A DNA stretch of 64,000 nucleotides from Arctopsyche grandis (lineage: Eukaryota > Arthropoda > Insecta > Trichoptera > Hydropsychidae), in assembly GCF_051622035.1 (NCBI RefSeq), contig NC_135360.1:3407501-3471500 (forward strand). Direction: 5' to 3'. Below are positions 2,124 to 55,891 of the stretch, piece after piece. Each line of letters begins with the position of its first letter. The stretch's first letter is position 1. The translations under genes were made by a program, and so were the position numbers. The notes under the pieces are model-generated. The model was not told where the DNA came from, ran no database searches, and saw only the letters and a program-made list of their open reading frames with translations.

Positions 2124-2881
2124 TGTAGGAATCTCGTCGTCGTCATCGTCATCGAAACCTTCGAGAATATTCCGCAACAACAAAATACATCGAGCGGAAC
2201 AGCATCAAGCATTCCAGAAAATTCGACGCCTCGACGAAAACAAAATTCCTCTCGTACGCGTCAATAACCACTTCCATCAAGCATTCCAGAAAATTCGACG
2301 CCTCGACGAAAACAAAATTCCTCTCGTACGCGTCAATAACCACTTCCACCAAGCATTCCAAAAACACTATAAAAGGAGGTACAACCCAAACAACGCCAGT
2401 CGACCCACAGCAGCAAGCGTCGACATACAGCAGCAGACTAGTCAACATACAGCTCCTGACCAGCCACCACTACACTACGCGGACTTGGAAGATCAACCAG
2501 CCGGACGAGCCAGCAACACACTGCCGTATCCAGAGACCTTCCGTACATAGCTGAATGCTGAGCCAGCGACACTCTACCATATCCAGAGACCGCTGAACGA
2601 CATACTTTTGCCCACAAATACCATACCTTTGTACAACCATAGGCAAACAATAAAACTTTATAAAACTAGCACAACAGTGTTTCGTTAGGCCGGGATACGG
2701 TCAACACACATGTAACCCGCCTACATTGGTACTACTCCGACGTGATCTACGCAACCTTCTGATCATTCAACAGCGCTGTCAACACATCGCTACCCCGCCT
2801 ACATTGGTGACCCCATCTTTGAACCACACAACAGTGTTTCGTTAGGCCGGGATACGGTCAACACATCGTACCCCGCCTACA
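2124..2881 (+). repeat. 5' LTR
   Basis: Left LTR of the element, bounded by TG...CA. Inside are two copies of an approximately 70-bp direct repeat and, near 2370, TATAAAAGGAGG, a plausible TATA box. The last 60 bp (GTTTCGTTAGGCCGGGATAC block) recur in all LTR fossils of this window. Confidence 0.85.
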
Positions 2882-3157
2882 TTGGTGACCCCGACGTGAT
2901 CTACGCAGCCTTCACAGCAGCCCACAGCGCTGTCAACACACATCGCTACCCCGCCTACACTGGTGACCCCCGACGTGATCTACGCAACCTTCTGATCATT
3001 CAACAGCGCTGTCAACACACATCGCTACCCCGCCTACATTGGTGACCCCATCTTAGAACTACGCAGCCTTCATAGCAGTCAACAGCGCAGTCAACACGGC
3101 AGCCCACAGTGCAGCCTCCACAACAACCAACAGCCGCCACGACAGCAGTCAACAGCG

Positions 3158-3270
3158 CAGCCTACATAGCAGCCCACATCGCAGCCTACATAGCAGCCCA
3201 CATCGCAGCCTACATAGCAGCCCACATCGCAGCCTACATAGCAGCCCACAGCGCAGCCTACAAAGCAGCC
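3158..3270. repeat. 24-bp tandem repeat inside LTR element
   Basis: About four and a half copies of a 24-bp unit beginning CAGCCTACATAGCAGCCCAC. Eight codons long, it produces Ala/His/Tyr- and Cys/Gly-rich decoy frames on both strands. Confidence 0.9.
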
Positions 3271-3951
3271 AACAAACGCCACGACAAGGCAACAGCCAGA
3301 AGCCTTCACGCAACCGCAAGCTTCGAGCAACCACAAGCTTCACGCAACCGCAAGCTTCATGCAACCGCAGACTTCACGCAACCGCAGCCTACAACGCAGT
3401 CTACAACGCAACCCTCAACGCAGACTTCAAACGCAGTCCGCTACATGTCCCCACAACTAGTGACCATGTCAAACAACTCCGCAGCTTTCGCCACAACAAA
3501 ACGCAACCCGGAGACAACAACCAAATGGATCCACTACTGTTGATCCGCCAGCACCGCTCATCACACCTTCGATGATTCATCACCTCGATGAGCCCATGCA
3601 GGACGCCGCAGCCTGCACAACAGCACCGTCCAGACCGTCACAAACCTTCACTACCATTGTAACGACCGCAACAGTAACATGGTGTGAAAGTACATATGGA
3701 CCAGCTACCAACACAACCCGCTGTTGAGTCAACCCACTCCAGCACAACCGGCGAAACAAATCGCCACTGAGCCAACTAGCTCCAACACAACACAGCCGCT
3801 GTCGAGACAACTAACTCCAGCACAATCAGCACAACGCCTGCACAACAACATCGTCCAGACCACCAACCTTCACTATCAACGTAGCCTAGACAGAATAAGC
3901 AACATGGTAGAAAATAACAACTTGGACCGGCATGCAACACAACCCGCTGTT

Positions 3952-4390
3952 GAGACAACTAACTCCAGCACAACCAACGAAGACTAGCACTCAACGCACT
4001 TCGTCAACCAACGTTCTTCACGCAAGATCCGCTGTCGAGACAACTAACTCCAGCACAACCAACGAAGACCAGCACTCAACGCACTTCGTCAACCAACGTT
4101 CTTCACGCAAGACCCGCTGCCGAGACAACTAACTCCAGCACAACCAACGAAGACCAGCACTCAACGCACTTCGTCAACCAACGTTCTTCACGCAAGATCC
4201 GCTGTCGAGACAACTAACTCCAGCACAACCAACGAAGACCAGCACTCAACGCACTTCGTCAACCAACGTTCTTCACGCAAGATCCGCTGTCGAGACAACT
4301 AACTCCAGCACAACCAACGAAGACCAGCACTCAACGCACTTCGTCAACCAACGTTATTCACGCAAGACCCGCTGCCGAGACAACTAACTT
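3952..4390. repeat. 85-bp tandem repeat inside LTR element
   Basis: Five copies of an 85-bp unit starting GAGACAACTAACTCCAGCAC, with unit starts at 3952, 4037, 4122, 4207, 4292 and a final partial start at 4377. The copies are nearly identical, which points to recent unequal exchange or template switching during reverse transcription. Confidence 0.9.
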
Positions 4391-4676
4391 CAGCACCACC
4401 AGCAAAACAGTCACGCGAATGACTCCACGCAGAACACAGCAGCCTGCACAACAGCACCATCCAAGCCATCACAAACCTTCACTACCAACGCAGCTCGCCC
4501 AAAATAAGCAACCTGGTAGAGAACAAGACTTGGACCGGCATGCAACACAAGACCCGCTGTCGAGACAACTTTCTCCAGCACAACCGGACAAACAACGACG
4601 CCATCGAGTCAATAGACTCCAACACATCAAGATTCCCACAAAATCACACACATCGCTAACACTCACCGGAGAGCCA

Positions 4677-5434
4677 TGTAGGAATCTCGTCGTCGTCATC
4701 GTCATCGAAACCTTCGAGAATATTCCGCAACAACAAAATACATCGAGCGGAACAGCATCAAGCATTCCAGAAAATTCGACGCCTCGACGAAAACAAAATT
4801 CCTCTCGTACACGTCAATAACCACTTCCATCAAGCATTCCAGAAAATTCGACGCCTCGACGAAAACAAAATTCCTCTCGTACGCGTCAATAACCACTTCC
4901 ACCAAGCATTCCAAAAACACTATAAAAGGAGGTACAACCCAAACAACGCCAGTCGACCCACAGCAGCAAGCGTCGACATACAGCAGCAGACTAGTCAACA
5001 TACAGCTCCTGACCAGCCACCACTACACTACGCGGACTTGGAAGATCAACCAGCCGGACGAGCCAGCAACACACTGCCGTATCCAGAGACCTTCCGTACA
5101 TAGCTGAATGCTGAGCCAGCGACACTCTACCATATCCAGAGACCGCTGAACGACATACTTTTGCCCACAAATACCATACCTTTGTACAACCATAGGCAAA
5201 CAATAAAACTTTATAAAACTAGCACAACAGTGTTTCGTTAGGCCGGGATACGGTCAACACACATGTAACCCGCCTACATTGGTACTACTCCGACGTGATC
5301 TACGCAACCTTCTGATCATTCAACAGCGCTGTCAACACATCGCTACCCCGCCTACATTGGTGACCCCATCTTTGAACCACACAACAGTGTTTCGTTAGGC
5401 CGGGATACGGTCAACACATCGTACCCCGCCTACA
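4677..5434 (+). repeat. 3' LTR
   Basis: Right LTR of the element, same length as the left copy and almost identical in sequence, followed by the target duplication CACG. Confidence 0.85.
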
Positions 5435-22132: not shown

Positions 22133-22752
22133 GTAAGAATTAATATATAATGTCTTCAATTATAGTACATATAATGAAATATCGGCGCGATGTATGTACA
22201 GCGGTCGACAACCTCTGCCACAGGTGTCACTAAATGCACGCGTATATCTTGTTGGCCCTGAAGGAAATTCAGAAATCGACATTAAGTTTAAAACGACAAA
22301 ACAATGATCTAAATATTAAAGTGTCAGCTTTAAAATTGATCCTTGTGGAAGTTATAGTAACATACATTTGTAGTTTAATAAAGTGTGTTTATGGCTTTAT
22401 TAGTTTGGTTTACTGTCACGCGGAGTGTCCAATAAATTAAAGTTATAAATAAAATAAAACTTCAGTGCATGTACATATGTACATAAATTGGTTGCTGACC
22501 ACTGCGTTCCTTCCTTTTTTTTTCACCACTTCCCCGCTAGTGGCGACAAGATCCCCACTAAATTTATATGTAATGGCATATCTAGGTTATTCTACATCTA
22601 TGGAATTATTACAATATGTATCACAGCATATTAAAGATATCACATACACATATGTACATAATAAGAGACAAAAAATTTTGGCAAATAAGTTTTCTTTGGT
22701 CAGAGGAGGCAGTGAAGAGGCCTGAAACGAAAAAAATCATTATTATACACAA

Positions 22753-23954: not shown

Positions 23955-26374
23955 ATGGAGTGTAGACTTTGCCTCTGCTCTGTCCCACCAGTGGTTCTCG
24001 TCTCCATCTATGACGATCCTCATCTGCCGCATTTGGTGCAACGCATTTGGACCTGCTGTCGGCTGCGGGTCACTTACACTTGATCCATTGCTATTACCAG
24101 CTCGCTAGACCTCGCAACCATTATAATCTTTGTCATTTGCAGGTAAGGAAAGGTGACGACCTCCCAGATACGATATGCCTTTCGTGTGTCAACAATCTGG
24201 AATTGCTCAACAGCTTTCGAAACGCTTGTGTGCAGAGTAACGAAACGTCGAGGGTGGGATCAGCTGAGGCTTTGGACGTCAAAGCAGAGGAAGTTTTGCT
24301 GAAAGATTTTATGTGGGAAAATGAGTTGGGTGCTGATTTGCCACCCAACATTTCTAGTTCACCAGACGATGGCGAGGTAAGCTAACAGCATTCAATTGCC
24401 TTGGATTAATTACAAACAAAAAATTGTCTTAACCCTTTGGATGCCGACCAACGCCGATCGGCGTTTTGCCAATAAGTCCGTGAGCCTGAAATACGCCGAT
24501 AGGCGTTGTATTTTCAGCATATACAAAGTAAACAAGAATGCTACATGCCAAGCCTGTAAAGGTAGTATTGAAAAAAAAATGCATTGAACATGGGTCGTGT
24601 AATCTGTGTCAATGTTTATAAAGACTGGTTTACACCGAAATATCTGAATTTATAACCATAGCAGAATTTCTCGATGGAAATCCCTAACTAGTGAGTATTT
24701 TAGATTGTGGCTTGGCATTTAGATTGCGAGCATTACATTTTAACAACAATGAAGAAAATGAAACTTGTTTTGGAAAAATACATTAATTAATAGACTTATT
24801 TTGTTTATATTATATATTGTTGCAAGATATATTAGTGAGTCTAAACACACCTTTACAAAACTCGAAATCCTTGGTAGTAGTTATCTAGGGTTTGTTTGGA
24901 TTACCTACAATTTTTATACCTGCTTTCTGTTGGATTTCTAAATAATTCTAGTTGGAAATGTTGGCAGACTTTCAACAGAAAAGACGTCAGCACTCAAAGG
25001 GTTAATCGATACTATTAATTTACCTGTAAAATAAAATTTAATCTCACAATCAAGTTGTATAACTTTTGGATTATTTTATAGATACCCAGAGTAAAAATTA
25101 CTTCAGACAATAGTAGATCAGAAATGATTGATGCAGACGAATTACCATTACCAAAAACTAGTTCTACACATTCTGAATTGGGCCATAAAATTAATTCCCA
25201 AGACAAATCGTTTACTCTTGAGCACAATCTTGTGAAGCAGAAAAGATGTGATTCTCAAAGAAAGCCGCATTCTAGAGATAAACCGTTCAAATGTGATATT
25301 TGTTTGAAATCATACCTTAGAAAATATGACATTATGAAACATATGCGAAGCCATTCTGGAGAAAAACCATTCAAATGTGATATTTGTTTAAAATCATTCT
25401 TGGAAAAGTGTTCCCTCATCGCACACATGTATATTCACGGTGGGGTCAAGCCTCACAAATGTGACATTTGTTCAAAATCATTTACAAAGAAACGAAGTCT
25501 TTATGCACACATGTGTGTTCATACTGGGGAATACCCACACAAATGTGACCTTTGTTCAAAATCATTTGCTTATAAATTTGCCTTTACAAATCATGTGAAA
25601 CGCCACTCTGAGGGAAACCCATTCAAATGTGACATTTGTTCAAAATCATTCCCGGTGATAGGCAGTCTTCGTAATCATATGAGTATTCATAATGGGGAGA
25701 AGTCACATAAATGTGAAATTTGTTCCAAGGCATTTAATATGAAACGCAATCTCGATAACCACATGGTTGTCCATACACGGATATATCCACACAAATGTGA
25801 CATGTGTTCAAAATCATTCCTTAGAAAGGAACACCTACTTGGGCATATGAATTTTCACATCGGGATAAAGAAAAACGAATGTAACGTGTGTTCGAAATCA
25901 TTTACTAGAAAACCTAACCTCATACGACATATGAAAATCCACTCTGGAGAAAAACCTTTGAAATGCGACATTTGTCTAAAATCATTCTATCAAAAATTTC
26001 GCCTCGTTGAACATATGATTATTCACTATGGGGTGAAGTCACACAAATGTGATGTTTGTTTAAAATCATTTTTGTTAAAATTCAACCTTATCAGACATAT
26101 GAAAGTGCACTCTGGAGTAGAACCGTTTAAATGTAAAATTTGTTTAAAAGCATTTCCTTGGAAAAATAAGTTTATGTGTGATATGAAAATCCACTCTGGA
26201 GAAAAACCATTCAAATGTGATATTTGTATGAAACCATTCATGTTAAAATCTAAGCTTGCTAGACACATTAGTACTCATAGTATAGTAAAGTCATACAAAT
26301 GTAAGATTTGCTTAAAATCACTTAAAACGAAACAAACTCTCAGTTTTCACATGAATATTCATAAACGAGACTGA
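23955..26374 (+). CDS. ZAD-ZNF locus 5: ZAD domain plus 13 C2H2 fingers
   Basis: Exons 23955-24068, 24143-24376 and 25082-26374; 546 residues. ZAD Cys pairs are in MECRLCLCSVPPVV and ICLSCVNNLELLNSF. The linker carries DELPLPKTSSTHSELGHKIN, then 13 fingers; in finger 11 (CKICLKAFPWKNKFMCDMKIH) the first zinc-binding His is replaced by Asp. The second intron is 705 bp, long for this family, because it holds a 569-bp MITE at 24433-25001. The stop codon lies inside the target duplication of the hAT element that follows at 26377. The upstream block seen at loci 4, 6 and 9 is absent. Confidence 0.87.
24433..25001. mobile_element. TTAA-flanked MITE (piggyBac-like), third family, in intron 2 of locus 5
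   Basis: Flanked by TTAA at 24429-24432 and 25002-25005, with ends CCCTTTGGATGCCGACC and GTCAGCACTCAAAGGG. Near the left end are repeated CGCCGATCGGCGTT / CGCCGATAGGCGTT palindromes. A partial reverse-oriented copy is at 36055-36410. Confidence 0.85.
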
Positions 26375-29817: not shown

Positions 29818-31029
29818 ATTTATTCAAAATCTGCACTCTCTAAGATGAATCCGCACTCTCTAAGACGGTCCAGGTTGTAAATGTGTAGCGGAAAATCAAG
29901 TAGATACGTAAGTCAAGTCGTGAAGTCTCAAACGACAGTTGAGCTAAGACTGAATGTACTTTTCATATGATATCCCGTAAAAAAGGAACTTGTGGTTTTT
30001 CCCTTATTTAGTTCCCTTAAAAGATAGCGTAAAAGTCCACAATTGCTAAAAGGTATTACATTATGTTTTCCAGGAGTCGACTCATCATTATCGTGTAAGC
30101 AGGTAAATCGAAAAAAAATTGGCATTTTTACATATAAAGTGATAGCATCATATTTGGATCACCCATTAGACATTTTAGTATATTCACTTACATTTACTAA
30201 GAGTAATATTTACTAAGCTTTTTGTATAAAAATATAATCATCAAAACATCTAAGTTAAAAAATAAACAGTAAATAATATTATACCTTTAGGCGAAAAAAT
30301 TTAATGCTTCTCGCGTTACTATAGCAAGTGCGTATATATATTTTTTTTTGAACCTTTCTGTTGGAAAGGGACAAAGCGCGCTCGGTGAGTCGCGCGCGGC
30401 TACGGAAATTTTGTGAACACGACAGGCGTGTCATTAGCACCCAACGGGTTAAGTGGTAGCCACCAACATGGTCGAATCTATCACAATTCGCAGGATGAAG
30501 AGCCAAACTCGACCGTGTCGTAGAGCCTCTACAGCAGAGCCACGCAACCTCTTGATAATCGCGGTACACATTGCTTACGATTCGTTTATCAGCTACGTAT
30601 GTACATACATACATATGAACTTCATCGGCAGTCGCTAGCTAGTCCTTACATACATAGGTGACAAAACGTTAACTAACATCGGTTTTCTCCCTCACACGCG
30701 ATTTCGCTCGCACGCGTTATATCAAAGTGGTGCCTGCGATTCAAATTTCATTACAAAGTTTCAGTGTGGCAGTTTCAAAGACATATAATGATGTTTGAAT
30801 TATCACTAAAATACACAGCCATATAACAATATACCAATACTCACTTTGAGCACAACAATACTAGATTTTGAATTAAAGACCGCAAAAGCCAAAAAACTGT
30901 AAAAAGTGCGCATTTTTTTAAACGCTCATATCTCATAAAAGAGACCCAAACAACAAAAATCATTATCATATTCGAATTCAGTGGGTCAAACTTGGTAACG
31001 ATTGGTTAGTCTTCGTTCCACTCCGTTTT
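29818..31029. other. Intergenic, no gene seen
   Basis: AT-rich spacer between the solo LTR and the upstream block of locus 6. Small frames lack domains. No RNA gene recognised. Confidence 0.45.
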
Positions 31030-31164: not shown

Positions 31165-32604
31165 ATGGAGTGCAGGCTTTGCCTCTGCTCTGCTCCACCA
31201 GAGGCTTTCGTCTCCATCCATGACGATCCTCATCCAAGGCGTTTGTCGCAACGCATTTGGACCTGCTGTAAGCTGCAGGTCAGTTACACCCAACTCATTG
31301 CTATTGCTAATTCGTTAGTTCTCGTAATCTTCAATTCATTTTTCATCAGCAGGTTAGGGAAGATGACTGTCTACCAGATATGATATGCCTTTCGTGTGTC
31401 TATAATCTGGAGTTGCTCGAAAGCTTTCGAAACCATTCCCTTCGAAGTGACAAAGTTTCGAGGATGAAATCAGACACGTCTTTGGATGTTAAGTCGGAGG
31501 AAGCTTTGTTGGAAGATTTAATATGGGATGTTGAGTCAGGTGCTAATTTTCCACCAAACATTTCTAGTTCACCAGACGATGGCGAAGTAAGTAAATGGGG
31601 TTCGAGTGCTGTAGAACGATTCTAAGCAAAACATTCTATCGATCGAAAATTTAAAAATTCACATGTAAAATGACATCTAATCATACTATAAAAATGTTTC
31701 ACATATTAAATTGTACAACGTTCCGTTTATGTTTTAGACTCGTGGAGGAGAAATTAATTTGAATGATAATCTGGCAGAATTAATGGATACCAATAAACAC
31801 ATCCTAGCGGAAGAATTACCATTACGAAAAGCTTTAGATAAGATGTGCTCAACAGATTCTGAATTGGACCATAAAATACATTTCCAAGACAAATCGTCTA
31901 CTCATAAACACAATCTTGTGACACTAAAAACATCTGATACCCGAGGAAAGCTGTATGACTGTGACATTTGTGCAAAATCATTTACTACAAAAGAAAATCT
32001 CGACGCACATAAGAGTATTCATACTGGGGTAAAGCCCCACAAATGTAACATTCGTTTGAAATCATTCGCACTACAATTGCAACCCGGGAAACATTTAAGT
32101 CACCACTCTGGCGAAAAACCCCCCAAATGTGACATTTGTTCAAAATCATTAAATACGAAACAAAATCTCGGAACACATACTCGGGTGAGGCAACCCAAAT
32201 GTGCTAATACTTCAGAATCTTCAGAATCAAACACCACTGTTGGCCATGTTGCACGCAATCGTCCAACAAAATATAATAATGCCAGTTCTGATACAAAAAT
32301 GATTTTAATAAAATGTTTCAAAGATGGAAAAACAATAAAAGAGTCTGCAGAAATAGCTGGAATTAATAAAAATACAGCGAAGGGAATAATTAATAGATAT
32401 AAAAAAAATGGTGATATGTTGGAGGAAAAATGTCGTGGTGGGAGAAGAAACATTAAACTGTCATCAGAATTACTTATAGAAATTGAAAATATAGTCGTAG
32501 AAAATCCATCGATAACTTTAAAGAAAATTAAGGAGAAGATTCTTGAAAGAAAAAGTGTGCATTTGAGCATAGGCTCAATTTTTAATGCTCTAGAAAAACG
32601 ATAA
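31165..32604 (+). CDS. ZAD-ZNF locus 6: ZAD-C2H2 fused to a Tc1/mariner-type HTH domain
   Basis: Exons 31165-31278, 31353-31586 and 31738-32604, phase-0 GT-AG introns; 404 residues. Residues 1-75 form a complete ZAD (MECRLCLCSAPP; ICLSCVYNLELL). The linker has EELPLRKALDKMCSTDSELD. Finger 1 (about residue 190) is intact; finger 2 has Arg for its second Cys; finger 3 lacks the last His. The frame then runs unbroken into residues 289-404: RNRPTKYNN, a first helix-turn-helix (IKESAEIAGINKNTAKGIIN), a GGRR turn, and a second one (ENPSITLKKIKEKILERK). This is the layout of the bipartite DNA-binding region of Tc1/mariner transposases. The frame stops before any catalytic DDE/D domain. Inference: a ZAD-zinc-finger/transposase fusion protein that could dimerise through ZAD and bind transposon ends. 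Alternative: a recent insertion that only happens to be in frame. Confidence 0.8.
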
Positions 32605-32689
32605 AGGATCACATTAAAAAGTGATTCTATGGAGCCTGAGTGCTGAAATTCATCGAGTACAATCATAGTATTATATTATTCTAATGTTA

Positions 32690-33201
32690 ATGTACAGCAT
32701 AATAGGAAAAAGAGCTCAAAAACCTATTTAAAATTCTTATAAATGCTCATAATACATCTAATACATAATATTAATTAAAGACTTTCTAAAGTCGATGACC
32801 TAAAGCAGATTGTGTTTAGGTAATCTGTGTTTATACCTGAAGGGTATAGACATGTTGTTGTAATCACCGAGTCTCTTCACAAGTGTGTTAGTATGGTTAT
32901 TAGTGATTCTGTCATAGAATCTACTGGTTAGTTTGTTAGTAATGTCTGTAACAAACGGAATATTATATATGGCATGCAGTTTTTTCAAGTTAGTATATAT
33001 GGGTGTGTTATAAATTATTTTTAGGGATTTATTTTGTATAACTTGGAGCTTGGAAAGGTTAGTATTCGAGGCGTTATTCCATACAGGTGAAGCATAGGTT
33101 AATAATGGTAATATGAGCGCGCGATATAATTTTATTTTATTTTTAGTTGATAAAGAACTATGGCGATTAAATATTGGATATATTGAGGATATACCCCGCA
33201 T
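32690..33201 (-). mobile_element. Jockey-type LINE fragment (reverse transcriptase C-terminus)
   Basis: The 133-residue frame contains SLSTKNKIKLYRALILPLLT then YASPVWNNAS and LQVIQNKSLKIIYNTP, the thumb/C-terminal part of Jockey-clade ORF2. It is 5'-truncated; sequence on the far side (33202 onward) is unrelated. It lies about 100-200 bp after locus 6, tail towards it. Confidence 0.75.
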
Positions 33202-34212
33202 CGCCTTGCATTTCGCTCCTCAACTCAAAGATTATCCGGAGATTTTTCAAAACACCAGTGTGTAAAAATATCAGAAACAAAAAAAAACAATTCGAAGACG
33301 ATGTCACGTTTTCTATAAAAACAAAATAACAAAAAAACGACTTTATTTTGGTGCAAATCTTGTAAAGAGCCTCTGCACTTAGGTGACTGTTTCGCAAAGT
33401 TTCACACAAAAAATATATTCTAATCTGTGTTTTGTAAAAGTAGTTTTATTTTTTAATGTTTAGCTTACATATATATAAATGTAATATAAGAATCATGTTT
33501 GTAGTTCTCAATGTGTGTAGTAGCTCAATTTTTAAATCATAATTATTTTAATTTCGATATTTAGTTTATAAATTTATGTTTTGATGTAATCGTAGTATAA
33601 GAATCATGTTTGTAGTATAATGCTCAATTTTTAAATCATAATGCTTTTTATTTCGATATTTAGTTATGTAAATGTAGTATGTAGTAAGCACAATTGTATT
33701 TTTACTTTTTCAAATTAAATCAAGAAAAACATAATTCATGTTTTATTTTACTCAAGTTATAAATTATTACGATGTTACAATATTATCTCATAGTGATCAG
33801 TAGAGCGCGGATAGAGAGCGTGCTTTTTCCAGGAATCGGGGCGGTTTGGCTCTATTTACAAAGTTAGAGTGCAAAAAAAAAGGTTCGGCTAATCTTTAAC
33901 AAAGCATTTACAACAATTCAACAATGGATGGCGCGCTGTGGGTCCGCTCACTAGTGATCAGTCCACGATGTGTCGTCAAAATGGTCATAAATTATAGTTT
34001 TTTTTTCTGGGAACTTTACTCACTGGAACCCGAACCGTTCCGCAACATTGACATAATGGGAACATAAAAAAATGCATAAAATGACTATTTTATTTTTTCT
34101 GGTTAGATTGTTAAATACATTTCCAAAGAATATTGAGCTTGATTTTATATAAGAAGATGTGAAACGATTTTCATGCGTTAGCGTCTATATTTTCAATTTA
34201 GAATTATGTTTT
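33202..34212. other. Intergenic with decayed MITE
   Basis: AT-rich. At 33470-33690 a stretch such as AATGTAGTATAAGAATCATG recurs two or three times in diverged tandem. 33785-33965 is a decayed relative of the TAGAGG palindromic MITE (shared AACAAAGCATTTACAACA core). No gene seen. Confidence 0.5.
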
Positions 34213-35455
34213 TGTAGGAATCTCGTCGTCGTCATCGTCATCGAAACCTTCGAGAATATTCCGCAACAACAAAATACATCGAGCGGAACAGCGCCAAGCA
34301 TTCCAGAAAATACTACGCCTCGACGAAAGCAAATTCCCCTCGTACGCATCAATAACCACTTCCATCAAGCATTCCAGAAAATACTACGCCTCGACAAAAG
34401 TGCATTCCTTTCGTACGCATCAACAAACTAAATGCTCGTACGACCACTTCCACCAAGCATTCCAGAAAATTCGACGCCTCGACGAAAGCAAATTCCTTTC
34501 GTACGCATCAACAAACTAAATGCTCGTACGACCACTTCCACCAAGCATTCCAGAAAATTCGACGCCTCGACGAAAGCAAATTCCTTTCGTACGCATCAAC
34601 AAACTAAATGCTCGTACGACCACTTCCACCAAGCATTCCAGAAAATTCGACGCCTCGACGAAAGCAAATTCCTTTCGTACGCATCAATAACCACTTCCAC
34701 CAAGCATTCCAGAAACCATATAAAAGGAGGTACAACCCAAACAACGCCAGTCGACCCACAGCAGCAAGCGTCGACACACAACAGCAGACCAGTCAACATA
34801 CAGCTCCTGACCAGCCACCGCTACACTACGCGGACTTGGAAGATCAACCAGCCGGACGAGCCAGCAACACACTGCCGTATCCAGAGACCTTCCGAACCTA
34901 GTCGAACAACAGCGCTGACAACACATCGCTACCCCGCCTACATTGGTACTACCCCGACGTGATCTACGCAACCTTCTGATCATCCAACAGCGCTGTCAAC
35001 ACATACCTACCCCGCCTACATTGGTGACCCCATCTTTGAACTACGCAGCCTTCATAGCAGTCAACAGCGCAGTCAACACGGCAGCCCACAGTGCAGCCTC
35101 CACAACAACCAACAGCCGCCACGACAGCAGCCCACAGCGCAGCCTACATAGCAGCCCACAGCGCAGCCTACATAGCAGCCAGTCGACCCACAGCAGCAAG
35201 AGTCGACCCACAGCAGCAAGCGTCGACATACAGCTCCTGACCAGCCACCACTACACTACGCGGACTTGGAAGATCAACCAGCCGGACGAGCCAGCAACAC
35301 ACTGCCGTATCCAGAGACCTTCCGAACATAGCCGAACACCGAGCCAGCAACACACTGCCGCATCCAGAGACCTTCTGAACATAGCTGAATGCCGAGCCAG
35401 CGACACTCTACCATATCCAGAGACCGCTGAACGACATACTTTTACCAACAATTAA
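34213..35455 (+). mobile_element. LTR fossil, second element of the family, truncated
   Basis: LTR at 34213-34942 (TGTAGG...CCTACA), then the primer-site region and a short internal part (34943-35175) as in 2124-5434, then a partial LTR-like piece to 35455. It is shorter than the first element, internally deleted and rearranged, and coding-empty. Within its LTR the 70-85-bp direct repeat (CACTTCCACCAAGCATTCCA) occurs four to five times instead of twice. Confidence 0.75.
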
Positions 35456-35739
35456 CCATACTTGTGTATACGTGTTACTACCAAATAAATACCACATTAA
35501 ACATATAGTTGTATTAATACCGAACACAGACGAATCTGTCTACAATACATGGCGGACTGGTGGTGAAGAAGACCTTCACAATAAGACTAGTTCCCATATT
35601 TTCACTTTTTTTTTTGCTTATTTTACGTTTATAACATTTATTTAAGAATTTAGAAAGAGTTTATTTTAATCAATTTAAACTAAAAGGAGCCGGGCCCGGG
35701 CAATATTCACGCATAAATTTACGCGGCCACTATAGTGTT

Positions 35740-40017: not shown

Positions 40018-41716
40018 ATGGAGTGCAGGCTTTGCCTCTGCTCTGCTCCACCAGAGGCTTTCGTCTCCATCCATGACGATCCTCATCCACAGCGTTTGTC
40101 GCAACGCATTTGGACCTGCTGTAAGCTGCAGGTCAGTTACACCCACCTCATTGCTATTGTTAATTCATTAGGTCTCGTTATCTTCAATTCATTTCTCATC
40201 TGCAGGTTAGGAAAGGTGACCGTCTGCCGGATACGATATGCCTTTCGTGTGTCAACGATCTGGAGTTGCTCGACAGCTTTCGAAAAGCTTGCTTTCGGAG
40301 TGACACAACGTCAAGGGTGGAATTAGACAAGTGTTTGAAAGTCAAGCCGGAGGAAGTTTTGCTGGAAGATTTGATATGGGAAAATGAAGCGGGTGCCGAT
40401 ATTCCACCAAACATTTCTAGTTCACCAGACGATGGCGAAGTAAGTAAATGGGGTTCGAGTGCTGTAGAACGATTCTAAGCAAAACATTCTATCGATCGAA
40501 AATATAAATTCACATGTAAAATGATATCTAATCACACTATAAAAATCTTTCACATATTAAATTGTATAGCGTTCCGTTTGTGTTTTAGACTCGTGGAGGA
40601 GAAATTAACTTGAATGATGATATGGCAGAAATAATAGATGCCAATAAACACATCCTAGTGGAGGAATTACCATTACGAAAATCTTTCGATGAGATGTGCT
40701 CAACAGATTCTAAATTGGACCATAAAATAAATTTCCAAGACAAATCGCCTACTCGTAAACACGATCTTGTGACACAGAAAACTTCTGCAACTCGAAGAAA
40801 GCTCTATGACTGTGACATTTGTTCAAAATCATTTAGTACGAAATCAAATCTCGATGCACATAAGAGTACTCATACTGGGGTAAAGCCACACAAATGTAAC
40901 ATTTGTTTGAAATCATCTGCACTAAAATTCGCAACTCGTGAATCATTCGAGTCACCACTCCATCGAAAAACCTTTCAAATGTAACATTTTTGTTCAAAAT
41001 TATTTAATACGATACAAAATCTCAGATCACACGATTACACACACGGGTAATGCCACACAAATGTGATATTTGTTTAAAATCATTCACTCGAAAATCTTCA
41101 CTTACAATGCATTTGTACTGTCACATTGGAGACAAGCCACATAAATGTGACTTTCCACTCAAATGTGACATTGTTCAAAATCATTGGCTCTAAAAAATAA
41201 CCTTGGGACATGTTTGAGTTTTCACTCTGGGATAAAGCCGTTCAAATGTGAAATATGTTAAAAATCATTCACTTTCAAAAATAATTTTATGAGACATTTG
41301 AAGCTCCACTCCGAGGGAAAATCGTTTAAATGTGACACTTGTTCAAAATCATTTTCTCAAAAATGTAACCTTACGTTGGCGACATAAGAAATGCCACTCT
41401 GGAGAAAAAGCATTCAAATGTGACATTTATTCAGAATCATTTACTTTAAAATGGAACCTTATGAGACATTTGAGTTTTCACTCTGGTATAAAACCGTTCA
41501 AATGTGAAATACATATGTTTAAAATCATTCACTTTGAAAAATAGCTTTATGAGACATTTGAAGCTCCACTCTAGGGGAAAACTGTTCAAAAGTCACCACT
41601 CTGAAGAAAAACCCTGCAGATGTGACACTTGTTTAAAATCATTTATCAAGAAACATAATTTTGGTGCACATATGAATATTCATACTGGGATAAAGCCATA
41701 CAAATGTATCATTTGT
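40018..41716 (+). pseudogene. ZAD-ZNF locus 7: intact ZAD exons, decayed finger array
   Basis: Exons 40018-40131, 40206-40439 and 40589-40984 are open and correctly spliced (ZAD pairs MECRLCLCSAPP and ICLSCVNDLELL; linker EELPLRKSFDEMCS; one good finger at 40806-40880). A base insertion in the second finger (ALKFATRESFESPL instead of a normal helix) leads to a stop at 40982-40984. From 40985 to 41716 about seven finger units remain recognisable but in shifting frames. As it stands the locus could still make a protein of about 247 residues with ZAD and one finger; more likely it is a dying gene. Its 3' end is cut by a MITE at 41721. Confidence 0.8.
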
Positions 41717-41720
41717 TTAA

Positions 41721-48104: not shown

Positions 48105-49581
48105 ATGGAGTGCAGGCTTTGCCTCTGCTCTGCTCCACCAGAGGCTTTCGTCTCCATCCATGACGATCCTCATCCACAGCGTTTGTCGCAGCGCATTTGG
48201 ACTTGCTGTCAGTTGCGGGTCAGTGACACCCAACTCATTGCTATTGCTATATTTCGTTAGTTCTCGTTATCTTCAATTCATTTCTCATCTGCAGGTTAAG
48301 AAAGGTGACCGTCTGTCAGATTCGATATGTCGTTCGTGTGTCAAGAATCTGGAGTTGCTCGAAAGCTTTCGAAATGTTTGTTTTCGGAGTGACACAACGT
48401 CGAGGGTGGAATTAGACAAGTATTTGAAAGTCAAGCCGGAGGAAGTTCTGCTGGAAGATTTAATATGGGAAAATGAGGCGGGTGCTGATTTTCCACCAAA
48501 CATTTCTAGTTCACCAGACGATGGCGAAGTAAGTAAATGCGATTCGAGTGCTTAAGAACCATTCTAAGCAAAACATTCAATTGATTGAAAATATAAATTC
48601 ACATTTAAAATGACATCTAATTAAAATATAAATATGTTTCACATATTAAATTATATTAACGTTCGTTTTATGTTTTAGACATGTGGAGGAAAAATTACTT
48701 TGAACGATAATATGGTAGAAATAACAGATACGAATAGACACAATCTAACGGAAGAATTACCATTACGAAAAGATTTAGATAAGATGTCCCCCACACATTC
48801 TGAATTTGACCATGAAGTAAATTTCCAACACAAATCGTCTACTCAAAAACACAGTCTTGTGACAAAGAAAACATCTGGTGATGACATTTGTTTGAAATTA
48901 TTTACTACGAAACAAACTCTCGACGCTCATATGGGAATTTGTACTGGGGTAAAGCCACACAACCATATCAGTCACCACTCTGGAGAAAACCCGTTAAAAT
49001 GTAACATTTGTTTAAAACCATTTTCTAATAAATTTAACCTTTCGCAACATAAGATAAGATACCATAGAGAAAAACCGTTCAAATGTGACATTTGTTCAAA
49101 ATCATTTTCTAATAAATACAACCTTTCGCGACATAAGATATGCCACCACGGAGAAAAACCGTTCAAATGTGACATTTGTTCAAAATCATTTGCTCTAATA
49201 GATGACCTTTCGCGACATAAGATATGCCACTATGGAGAAAAACCGTTCAAATGTAACATTTGTTTAAAACATTTTTTTACAAAATATGACCTTTCACGAC
49301 ATGAGAAATGCCACTCTGAAGAAAAACCGTTCAAATGTGACATTTGTATAAAATCATTTTTTACAAAATATGACCTTTCGCGACATGAGAAATGCCACTC
49401 TGGAGAAAAACCGTTCAAATGTGACATTTGTTCAAAATCATTTGCTTTAAAAAGTTACCTTTGGAAACATTTGAAATTTTACTGTGGAAAAAAACCCTTC
49501 AAATGTGACATTTGTTCAAAATCATTTGGTCAGAAATCTTGCCTTGTGAAACATTTGAGTCTCCATTCAAATCCATTTTAA
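48105..49581 (+). CDS. ZAD-ZNF locus 8: ZAD domain plus 7 C2H2 fingers
   Basis: Exons 48105-48218, 48295-48528 and 48679-49581; phase-0 introns of 76 and 150 bp; 416 residues. The ZAD second pair reads ICRSCVKNLELL, shared only with locus 9. The linker has EELPLRKDLDKMSPTHSEFD. The first unit (DDICLKLFTTKQ) has lost its first Cys; seven fingers follow, one with Cys replacing its last His (WKHLKFYCGK). The protein ends LHSNPF where locus 9 continues with more fingers. Exons and introns are nearly identical to locus 9, so the two are recent duplicates, but this copy is shorter by about nine fingers. Confidence 0.87.
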
Positions 49582-53613: not shown

Positions 53614-55891
53614 ATGGAGTGCAGGCTTTGCCTCTGCTCTGCTCCACCAGAGGCTTTCGTCTCCATCCATGACGATCCTCATCCACAGCGTTTGTCGCAG
53701 CGCATTTGGACTTGCTGTCAGTTGCGGGTCAGTGACACCCAACTCATTGCTATTGCTATAATTCGTTAGTTCTCGTTATCTTCAATTCATTTCTCATCTG
53801 CAGGTTAAGAAAGTTGACCGTCTGCCAGATTCGATATGTCGTTCGTGTGTCAAGAATCTGGAGTTGCTCGAAAGCTTTCGAAATGTTTGTTTTCGGAGTG
53901 ACACAACGTCGAGGGTGGAATTAGACAAGTATTTGAAAGTCAAGCCGGAGGAAGTTCTGCTGGAAGATTTAATATGGGAAAATGAGGCGGGTGCTGATTT
54001 TCCACCAAACATTTCTAGTTCACCAGACGATGGCGAAGTAAGTAAATGCGATTCGAGTGCTTTAGAACCATTCTAAGCAAAACATTCAATTGATTGAAAA
54101 TATAAATTCACATTTAAAATGACATCTAATTAAAATATAAACATGTTTCACATATTAAATTGTATTAACGTTCGTTTTATGTTTTAGACATGTGGAGGAA
54201 AAATTACTTTAAACGCTAATATGGTAGAAATAACAGATGCCAATAGACACAATCTAACGGAAGAATTACCATTACGAAAAGATTTAGATAAGATGTGCCC
54301 CACACATTCTGAAATTGACCATGAAGTAAATTTCCAACACAAATCGTCTACTCAAAAACACAGTCTTGTGACACAGAAAACATCTGGTGATGACATTTGT
54401 TCGAAATTATTTACTACGAAACAAACTCTCGACGCTCATATGGGAATTTGTACTGGGGTAAAGCCACACAACCATTTCAGTCACCACTATGGAGAAAATC
54501 CGTTCAGATGTGACATTTGTTTAAAATCATTTTCTAATAAATATAACCTTTCGCGACATAAGATAAGTCACTCTGGAGAAAAACCGTTCAAATGTGACAT
54601 TTGTTCAAAATCATTTGCTCTAAAATATGACGTTTCGCGACACAAGATATGTCACTCTGGAGAAAAACCGTTCAAATGTTACATTTGTTTAAAATTATTT
54701 TATAAAAAATCTGACCTTTCGCGACATAAGATATGCCACTCTGGAAAAAGACCATTCAAATGTGACATTTGTTCAAAATCATTTGCTCTAAAATATGAAC
54801 TTTCGCGACATAAGATATGCCACTCTGGAGAAAACCCGTTCAAATGTGACATTTGTTTAAAATCATTTTATAAAAAATCTGACCTTTCGCGACATAAGAT
54901 ATACCACTCTGGAGAAAAACTGTTCAAATGTGACATTTGTTCAAAATCATTTGCTCTAAAATATGACCTTTCGCGACATATGATATGCCACTCTGGAGAA
55001 AACCCGTTCAAATGTGACATTTGTTTTAAATTATTTTATAAAAAATCTGACCTTTCGCGACATAAGATATGCCACTCTGGAGAAAACCCGTTCAAATGTG
55101 ACATTTGTTTAAAATCATTTGCTTTAAAAAGTTACCTTGGGAAACATTTGAAATTTCACTGTGGAAAAAAACCCTTCAAATGTGACATTTGTTCAAAATC
55201 ATTTGGTGATAAATGTTTCCTTGTGAAACATTTGAATCTCCACTCTGGAGAAAAACCATTCAAATGTGACATTTGTTCAAAATCATTTTCTAAAAAATCT
55301 GACCTTTCCCGACATAAGATATGCCACTCTAGAGATAAACCGTTCAAATGTAACATTTGTTTAAAATCATTTTCTAAAAAATCTGACCTTTCGCGACATA
55401 AGATATGCCACTCTGGAGAAAAACCGTTCAAATGTGACATTTGTTCAAAATCATTTGCTCTAAAAGTTTATCTTATGAACCATTTGAGTCATCACTCTGA
55501 AAAAAGACCATTCAAATGTGACCTTTGTTTTAAATCATTTGCTTTAAAAAGTTACCTTGGTAAACATTTGAAATTTCACTCTGGGATAAAACCGTTTAAA
55601 TGTGACATTTGTTCAAAATCATTTGGTGAGAAATGTCACCTTGTGACACATATACGTCGCCACTCTGGAGAAAATCTTACGCGACAATTGATTTACCACT
55701 CGGTAGAAAAACCTTTCAAATGTGACATTTGTTCAAAATCATTTTCTAAAAAATCTAACCTTTCGCGACATAAGATATGTCACTCAGGAGAAAAACCGTT
55801 CAAATGTAGTATTTGTATAAAATCATTCACTCGAAAATATTCACTTGCAACGCATTTGAAGTTTCACACTAGACCACAGACACAACTGTAA
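53614..55891 (+). CDS. ZAD-ZNF locus 9: ZAD domain plus 16 C2H2 fingers
   Basis: Exons 53614-53727, 53804-54037 and 54188-55891; phase-0 introns of 76 and 150 bp; 683 residues. ZAD pairs are in MECRLCLCSAPP and ICRSCVKNLELL; linker EELPLRKDLDKMCPTHSEID. Sixteen intact fingers plus one collapsed unit (SGENLTRQLIYHSVEKPF). Fingers 2-7 alternate two helix types, ALKYDLSRH and YKKSDLSRH, a dimer of about 168 bp repeated three times; most fingers share the helix end DLSRHKICH, so neighbouring fingers may read similar base triplets. Nuclear DNA-binding factor by family; sister of locus 8. Confidence 0.9.

Follow-up and report, generated by a model that had tools for sequence, protein, structure and literature searches.

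A ZAD-C2H2 zinc finger gene copy fused in frame to a Tc1-type transposase DNA-binding domain in the caddisfly Arctopsyche grandis

Organization of the locus

The 64-kb stretch of the Arctopsyche grandis genome analyzed here (NC_135360.1, positions 3,407,501 to 3,471,500; "the window") carries a tandem family of genes that combine a ZAD domain with C2H2 zinc fingers, and sequence analysis confirmed that one of these copies, at 31165-32604, is fused in frame to a Tc1-type transposase DNA-binding domain. Eight ZAD starts were identified in the window (5965, 12164, 16846, 23955, 31165, 40018, 48105 and 53614), besides a finger array at 1-773 whose own start lies outside it; with this array counted first, the fused copy is designated L6 and the copy at 40018 is designated L7. 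Coordinates are window positions on the plus strand unless stated otherwise.

L6 consists of three exons that together encode a product of 404 residues. Exon 1 (31165..31278) encodes the N-terminal half of the ZAD, starting with MECRLC, and exon 2 (31353..31586) encodes its C-terminal half and the start of the linker, both according to the sequence, Pfam and the NCBI record. Exon 3 (31738..32604), delimited by the sequence, the open reading frame and the NCBI record, comprises the linker, the remnant of the finger array, the junction, the helix-turn-helix (HTH) tail and the stop codon. A first-pass annotation of this stretch had described the ZAD exons and splice sites as preserved and the array as reduced to one good finger, and both descriptions proved accurate. 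The N-terminal ZAD passes the Pfam gathering score (PF07776, 35.6 bits against 28, residues 3-72), and the splice sites are consensus-like when read by eye. Only one of the three fingers is complete, namely that at 31954..32022 (residues 191-211), which was recognized by Pfam zf-C2H2 and by the pattern C-x2-C-x12-H-x3-H, a pattern that also gives a chance match inside the ZAD. In the second finger (32038..32106) the sequence has arginine in place of the second cysteine, and the third (32125..32184) lacks the last histidine and part of the linker, as judged from the sequence and from comparison with the paralog at 40018, so that two fingers have lost zinc ligands and L6 does not possess an intact C2H2 array. 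The DNA upstream of L6 aligns with other ZAD copies, with L4 from position 31027.

Junction and ends of the captured piece

Similarity to the finger arrays of the paralogs stops, and similarity to transposases starts, within a zone at 32205..32236 defined by DNA and protein alignments. The last clear DNA match to the copy at 40018 lies at ~32208 and the BLAST alignment ends at 32223, while transposase similarity begins no more than ~30 bases past the finger-array match, with no untranslated leader in between. The join is located inside the DNA of one exon, without splicing being involved, and the reading frame across it is uninterrupted as far as 32601. An assembly chimera of two unrelated pieces, in favor of which it may be said that the locus has been seen in one assembly only, is very improbable, since the junction falls within a single open exon in which the transposase and finger frames agree, and since the NCBI record, presumably made on this same assembly, is identical letter for letter.

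At its other end, the captured piece had been described as ending before any catalytic domain, which stands insofar as no catalytic part is present, but transposase homology continues past the stop codon. The tblastn alignments of three transposases (P0002, P0003 and P0004) cross the stop at 32602-32604 for ~20 residues, to ~32664-32682, and the in-frame continuation at 32605..32664, which corresponds to the linker to the DDE domain, contains a second stop. Beyond 32682, no significant match to the DDE catalytic domain was found when these three proteins were compared with the window (best 12 matches each). Because the homology extends in frame past the stop, the end of the L6 open reading frame is, judging from these alignments, a stop within a longer, broken transposase remnant, the remainder of which is missing. 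Insertion of a whole transposon was rejected, as there is no leader between the finger and transposase homology and no catalytic part was found downstream.

Homology and predicted structure of the tail

Over its ~120 residues, the L6 tail shares 61-65% identity with the N-terminal region of full-length DD34E Tc1/IS630-type transposases. A search with residues 288-404 against 5.8 billion proteins yielded four matches among 225 candidates: P0001 (the protein itself), P0002 (61%), P0003 of Lucilia sericata (65%) and P0004 (47%), the latter three all possessing a DDE_3 domain. The match to a complete transposase reaches E 1.5e-31 in this database and is thus not attributable to chance. The reach of this search was limited, as it missed P0047, a protein found by a later profile search, in which 97 of the 7,993 scored candidates reached E <= 0.001. 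Three of these 97 proteins carry a non-transposase domain in the precomputed Pfam annotation, namely P0001 (ZAD, C2H2), P0047 (BTB) and P0006 (SCAN). The triad spacing D83D34E was observed in all four proteins measured (P0002, P0003, P0005 and P0008). Curated profiles, for which the first-pass annotation had proposed a search, are weak by themselves: the Pfam profiles HTH_32, HTH_23 and HTH_28 match the tail below their cut-offs, as does NCBIfam IS630 (33.3 bits, E 3.3e-8).

The tail had also been read as two HTH units with a GGRR turn, in agreement with the AlphaFold2 model (mean predicted local distance difference test score 89.6), in which two three-helix units are predicted. The first unit (32287..32406) comprises model helices 18-29, 34-41 and 45-57 and the second (32464..32595), to which the subthreshold HTH_32 match also belongs, comprises helices 77-89, 95-106 and 112-120; they are joined by an RGGRR turn (32434..32448) whose R, G and G are nearly invariant in an alignment of 25 rows. 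In the fold comparison, Pax paired domains were the best matches, with Pax6 at the top, and Tc3, SETMAR and Mos1 were less clear. A Pax gene was nevertheless rejected, because the PAX profile (PF00292) scores 14.1 bits against a cut-off of 22. Taken together, identity, tree and model assign to the L6 tail the bipartite N-terminal HTH of a Tc1/IS630-type DD34E transposase. The joining of a ZAD gene to such a domain, as originally proposed, is therefore borne out by the open frame, the homology, the structure prediction and the NCBI gene model described below.

Elsewhere in the 64-kb window, the search for a further HTH copy was negative apart from a stretch of 11 residues at 22223-22255 that matches by chance (E 2.4). 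No relatives were found in phage records, and none of the 108 stretches in viral contigs that fitted a search pattern was confirmed. The Protein Data Bank sequence search of the tail returned three sequences up to E 1, the best being the repeat protein 8vd6, whose E value of 1.5e-7 is a sum over four short stretches, none of them significant alone.

The NCBI gene model

The NCBI gene model LOC143913497 (P0001, 591 residues) ends with the entire 404-residue product of 31165-32604, with zero differences. It opens with the ZAD, linker and pre-finger residues of the neighboring, intact copy at 23955 (its exons 1 and 2), which itself has 12 strict C2H2 matches and an array open to 26374. The model exits the neighbor at 25292, through a donor AAAT/GTGATA (slash at the cut) inside a cysteine codon of the first finger, and enters L6 two bases ahead of the ATG, the joint codon TCG giving the serine seen in P0001. 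Transcript evidence is one possible reason why the pipeline skipped the open array at 23955. As far as gene models go, expression of L6 is known solely through this one, with a second ZAD in front.

Paralogs, selection and age

By DNA, the closest tandem paralog of L6 is L7 (40018..41086), which lacks the HTH, has a frameshifted finger array and is 87% identical over the shared part (31062-32223 in L6). The divergence between L6 and L7 is 0.10 and 0.05 in the two introns, with a synonymous divergence (dS) of 0.15. In intron 1, L8 (0.07) and L9 (0.06) both diverge less from L6 than L7 does, whereas in intron 2 they diverge more (0.13 and 0.12, respectively); as L7 is nearest to L6 in one intron and L8 and L9 are nearer in the other, the copies are mosaics. 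L7 itself (40018-41719 with its frameshifted array) is probably a pseudogene. Elsewhere in the family, the copies at 48105-49572 and 53614-55870 are a recent duplication: their ZADs are nearly the same and their introns diverge by just 0.013 and 0.020, but their arrays differ in length.

Private ZAD changes were counted without L2, L3 and L5, and with L9 left out of the count. In L6 they comprise six nonsynonymous (N) and three synonymous (S) changes, compatible with no constraint (binomial p 0.44), in comparison with 2 N : 8 S in L4 (p 0.0002) and 1 N : 2 S in L7 (p 0.13); the direct contrast between L4 and L6 has a Fisher p of 0.07. The private linker changes of L4, L6 and L7 all fit no constraint (7 N : 2 S in L6). 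Pairwise ratios of nonsynonymous to synonymous divergence in the ZAD are 0.21 for L4-L6, 0.77 for L6-L7, 0.63 for L6-L8 and 0.59 for L6-L9. The private ZAD changes of L6 appear neutral-like.

The HTH of L6 itself does not look decayed at the sequence level: three of 42 conserved columns are altered, toward the low end of the 18 family members compared (2/42 to 12/43 in the other 17; this count excludes seven of the 25 rows as distant), and there is no stop across its 122 codons. When neutral decay is simulated, the HTH frame survives 5% divergence with a probability of 0.51 if only stops are considered and 0.11 if indels, assumed to arise at 0.1 per substitution, are included, and the latter value rises to between 0.65 and 0.26 at 1-3% divergence. 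Given the small divergence of L6 from its sister copies, this simulated survival means that the open frame proves little.

These data bear on two opposite explanations. It is rather unlikely that L6 is a domesticated host-transposase fusion, with a ZAD-HTH protein that the animal produces, that selection maintains and that controls or silences the parent transposon at its scattered copies. Such a role would accord with the undecayed, stop-free HTH, given the simulated survival at 5% divergence, and with P0047, in which an HTH of this family is fused to BTB and ends at nearly the same point; ZAD proteins have also been linked to heterochromatin and piRNA-cluster control in abstracts (PMC7655104 and PMC9531945). 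It is at odds with the neutral-like ZAD changes and their contrast with L4, with the two fingers that have lost zinc ligands and with a C-terminal end that is a stop in a remnant. Nor did an ortholog of the fusion turn up: in three word-limited protein searches, the only ZAD-HTH protein among 4, 97 and 1 matches was that of L6. It is likewise unlikely that L6 is a dying duplicate holding a transposon fragment, a pseudogene without product whose frame is open by chance. The birth-and-death setting of eight ZAD loci in 64 kb, with one array already broken at 40018, would suit such a fate, as would the broken fingers and neutral-like ZAD of L6 and the neutral survival of its HTH frame at 1-3% divergence; however, its splice sites are intact, its upstream region still aligns with other copies, and the NCBI coding model runs through L6 despite the open array of the neighbor, a hint of transcript evidence.

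Proposed origin and possible function

The reading that we hold most likely, with confidence only slightly above even, is that L6 is a young chimeric gene that is not visibly under selection. On this reading, one tandem ZAD-C2H2 copy lost its array beyond the third finger. The lost part is replaced by a piece of a transposase gene of the DD34E Tc1/IS630-type that shares the orientation and reading frame of the copy, so that behind the ZAD exon 3 now encodes the linker, a single intact finger and a bipartite, paired-like HTH. A partial insertion or a rearrangement may have been responsible, leaving neither the 5' end of the transposon nor its catalytic part. ZAD is a dimerization domain and, if L6 is translated, it would pair two chains, each HTH of which may bind the end repeats of the parent transposon family. 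The product would then be a dimeric transposon-end binder that could compete with the transposase or mark transposon copies. Three points weigh against a young, unselected chimera: the few losses at conserved HTH sites suit selection as well as youth; NCBI predicts the double-ZAD form, via a weak-looking donor, and not a single-ZAD transcript; and gene conversion among the mosaic copies may make the age bound wrong.

Related fusions and comparison with known systems

The second A. grandis protein of this kind, P0047 (LOC143919269 isoform X2, 443 residues), combines a BTB domain (89.4 bits) with an HTH 61% identical to that of L6, and ends ...LRITLKCNP, just short of the catalytic domain. Its transposase N-terminus appears complete by eye and, as this is isoform X2, its HTH may be an alternative C-terminus. 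The BTB motif FSLCWNN differs at one residue from FxLRWN, the TTK motif (PMC11426971). Further fusions were sought with the P0047 HTH, and only P0047 itself was found among 228 candidates. In the tree of the 25 HTH rows, in which 14 of 22 inner branches are open, the two A. grandis HTHs are sisters at 89/80, below the support limit, and the sequences would fit either a single capture passed on or a transposon lineage that was captured twice.

Outside insects, P0006 (Rhinolophus sinicus LOC109435920 isoform X2, 612 residues; a gene model) joins SCAN, HTH and DDE_3. Like L6 it has the same transposase family following an oligomerization domain, but it is mammalian and retains the catalytic domain. 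The BTB fusion in A. grandis and the bat SCAN fusion are new observations. The same transposase family is also present in Rhinolophus ferrumequinum (P0009), and this family may have been transferred horizontally between insects and bats. A further family member, P0019 (Episyrphus balteatus LOC129909229 isoform X1, 478 residues), has a long N-terminal extension before the transposase, with a CxxC-x10-CxxC motif and no Pfam match at E 0.01.

Transposase capture is a known source of new regulators in vertebrates, with SETMAR and KRABINER-type host-transposase fusions as examples; vertebrate fusions of this kind were reportedly treated by Cosby et al. 2021. The likeness of L6 to these fusions, as originally suggested, holds for design (a ZAD and a bipartite HTH in one frame, no catalytic part). 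A likeness in function is no more than possible: against it stand the neutral-like ZAD, the lack of an ortholog in the searches, the stop in the remnant and expression only via the double-ZAD model, and in its favor stands the BTB fusion in the same species. L6 further differs from them in having a ZAD rather than SET or KRAB, in belonging to an insect, in its join within one exon, in lacking a catalytic domain and in being known from sequence and a gene model. Among BTB proteins, mod(mdg4) likewise pairs an insect oligomerization domain with a transposon-type DNA-binding domain; unlike L6, it has many isoforms and draws its domain from another transposon superfamily, FLYWCH being of transposon origin but not of the Tc1/IS630-type. 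The BTB-FLYWCH isoforms of Drosophila mod(mdg4) are described in PMC11426971.

Transposase capture has also given rise to new regulators in nematodes, where the Caenorhabditis A2 family of F-box proteins with a Tc1/mariner HTH is expanded and functional (PMC12062965). As in L6, a multicopy gene family took the transposase HTH alone, although L6 is a single known copy with the HTH at its C-terminus, in contrast to the N-terminal HTH of A2. No ZAD-transposase fusion was described in the titles or abstract openings listed by searches of open-licence papers; in the parts available, PMC12062965 and PMC10027918 mention neither ZAD nor zf-AD in their main text, and PMC11837612 does not mention ZAD.

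A broader proposition, which we regard as distinctly doubtful, is that caddisflies turn the DD34E family on itself, its DNA-binding half having been captured at least two times in one genome, by ZAD and by BTB, both of them major domains through which insect transcription factors oligomerize, and cut both times just ahead of the catalytic domain, to give multimeric transposon-end binders. If so, the ZAD and BTB captures of caddisflies would parallel the KRAB and SCAN fusions of vertebrates. With one transposon family and two fusion proteins in one genome, recurrent capture is directly testable in A. grandis.

Other features of the window

Directly downstream of the transposase remnant, an open stretch on the minus strand (32803-33219) reads like what we take to be the C-terminal part of a non-long-terminal-repeat reverse transcriptase, for which a Pfam search of this stretch gave no match. 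Farther downstream, an 88-base tandem unit is present in 3.8 copies at 34355-34687, within 34213-35468, and this unit recurs together with adjoining sequence of 34213-35468 at 2124-5383, with many alignments of >85% identity.
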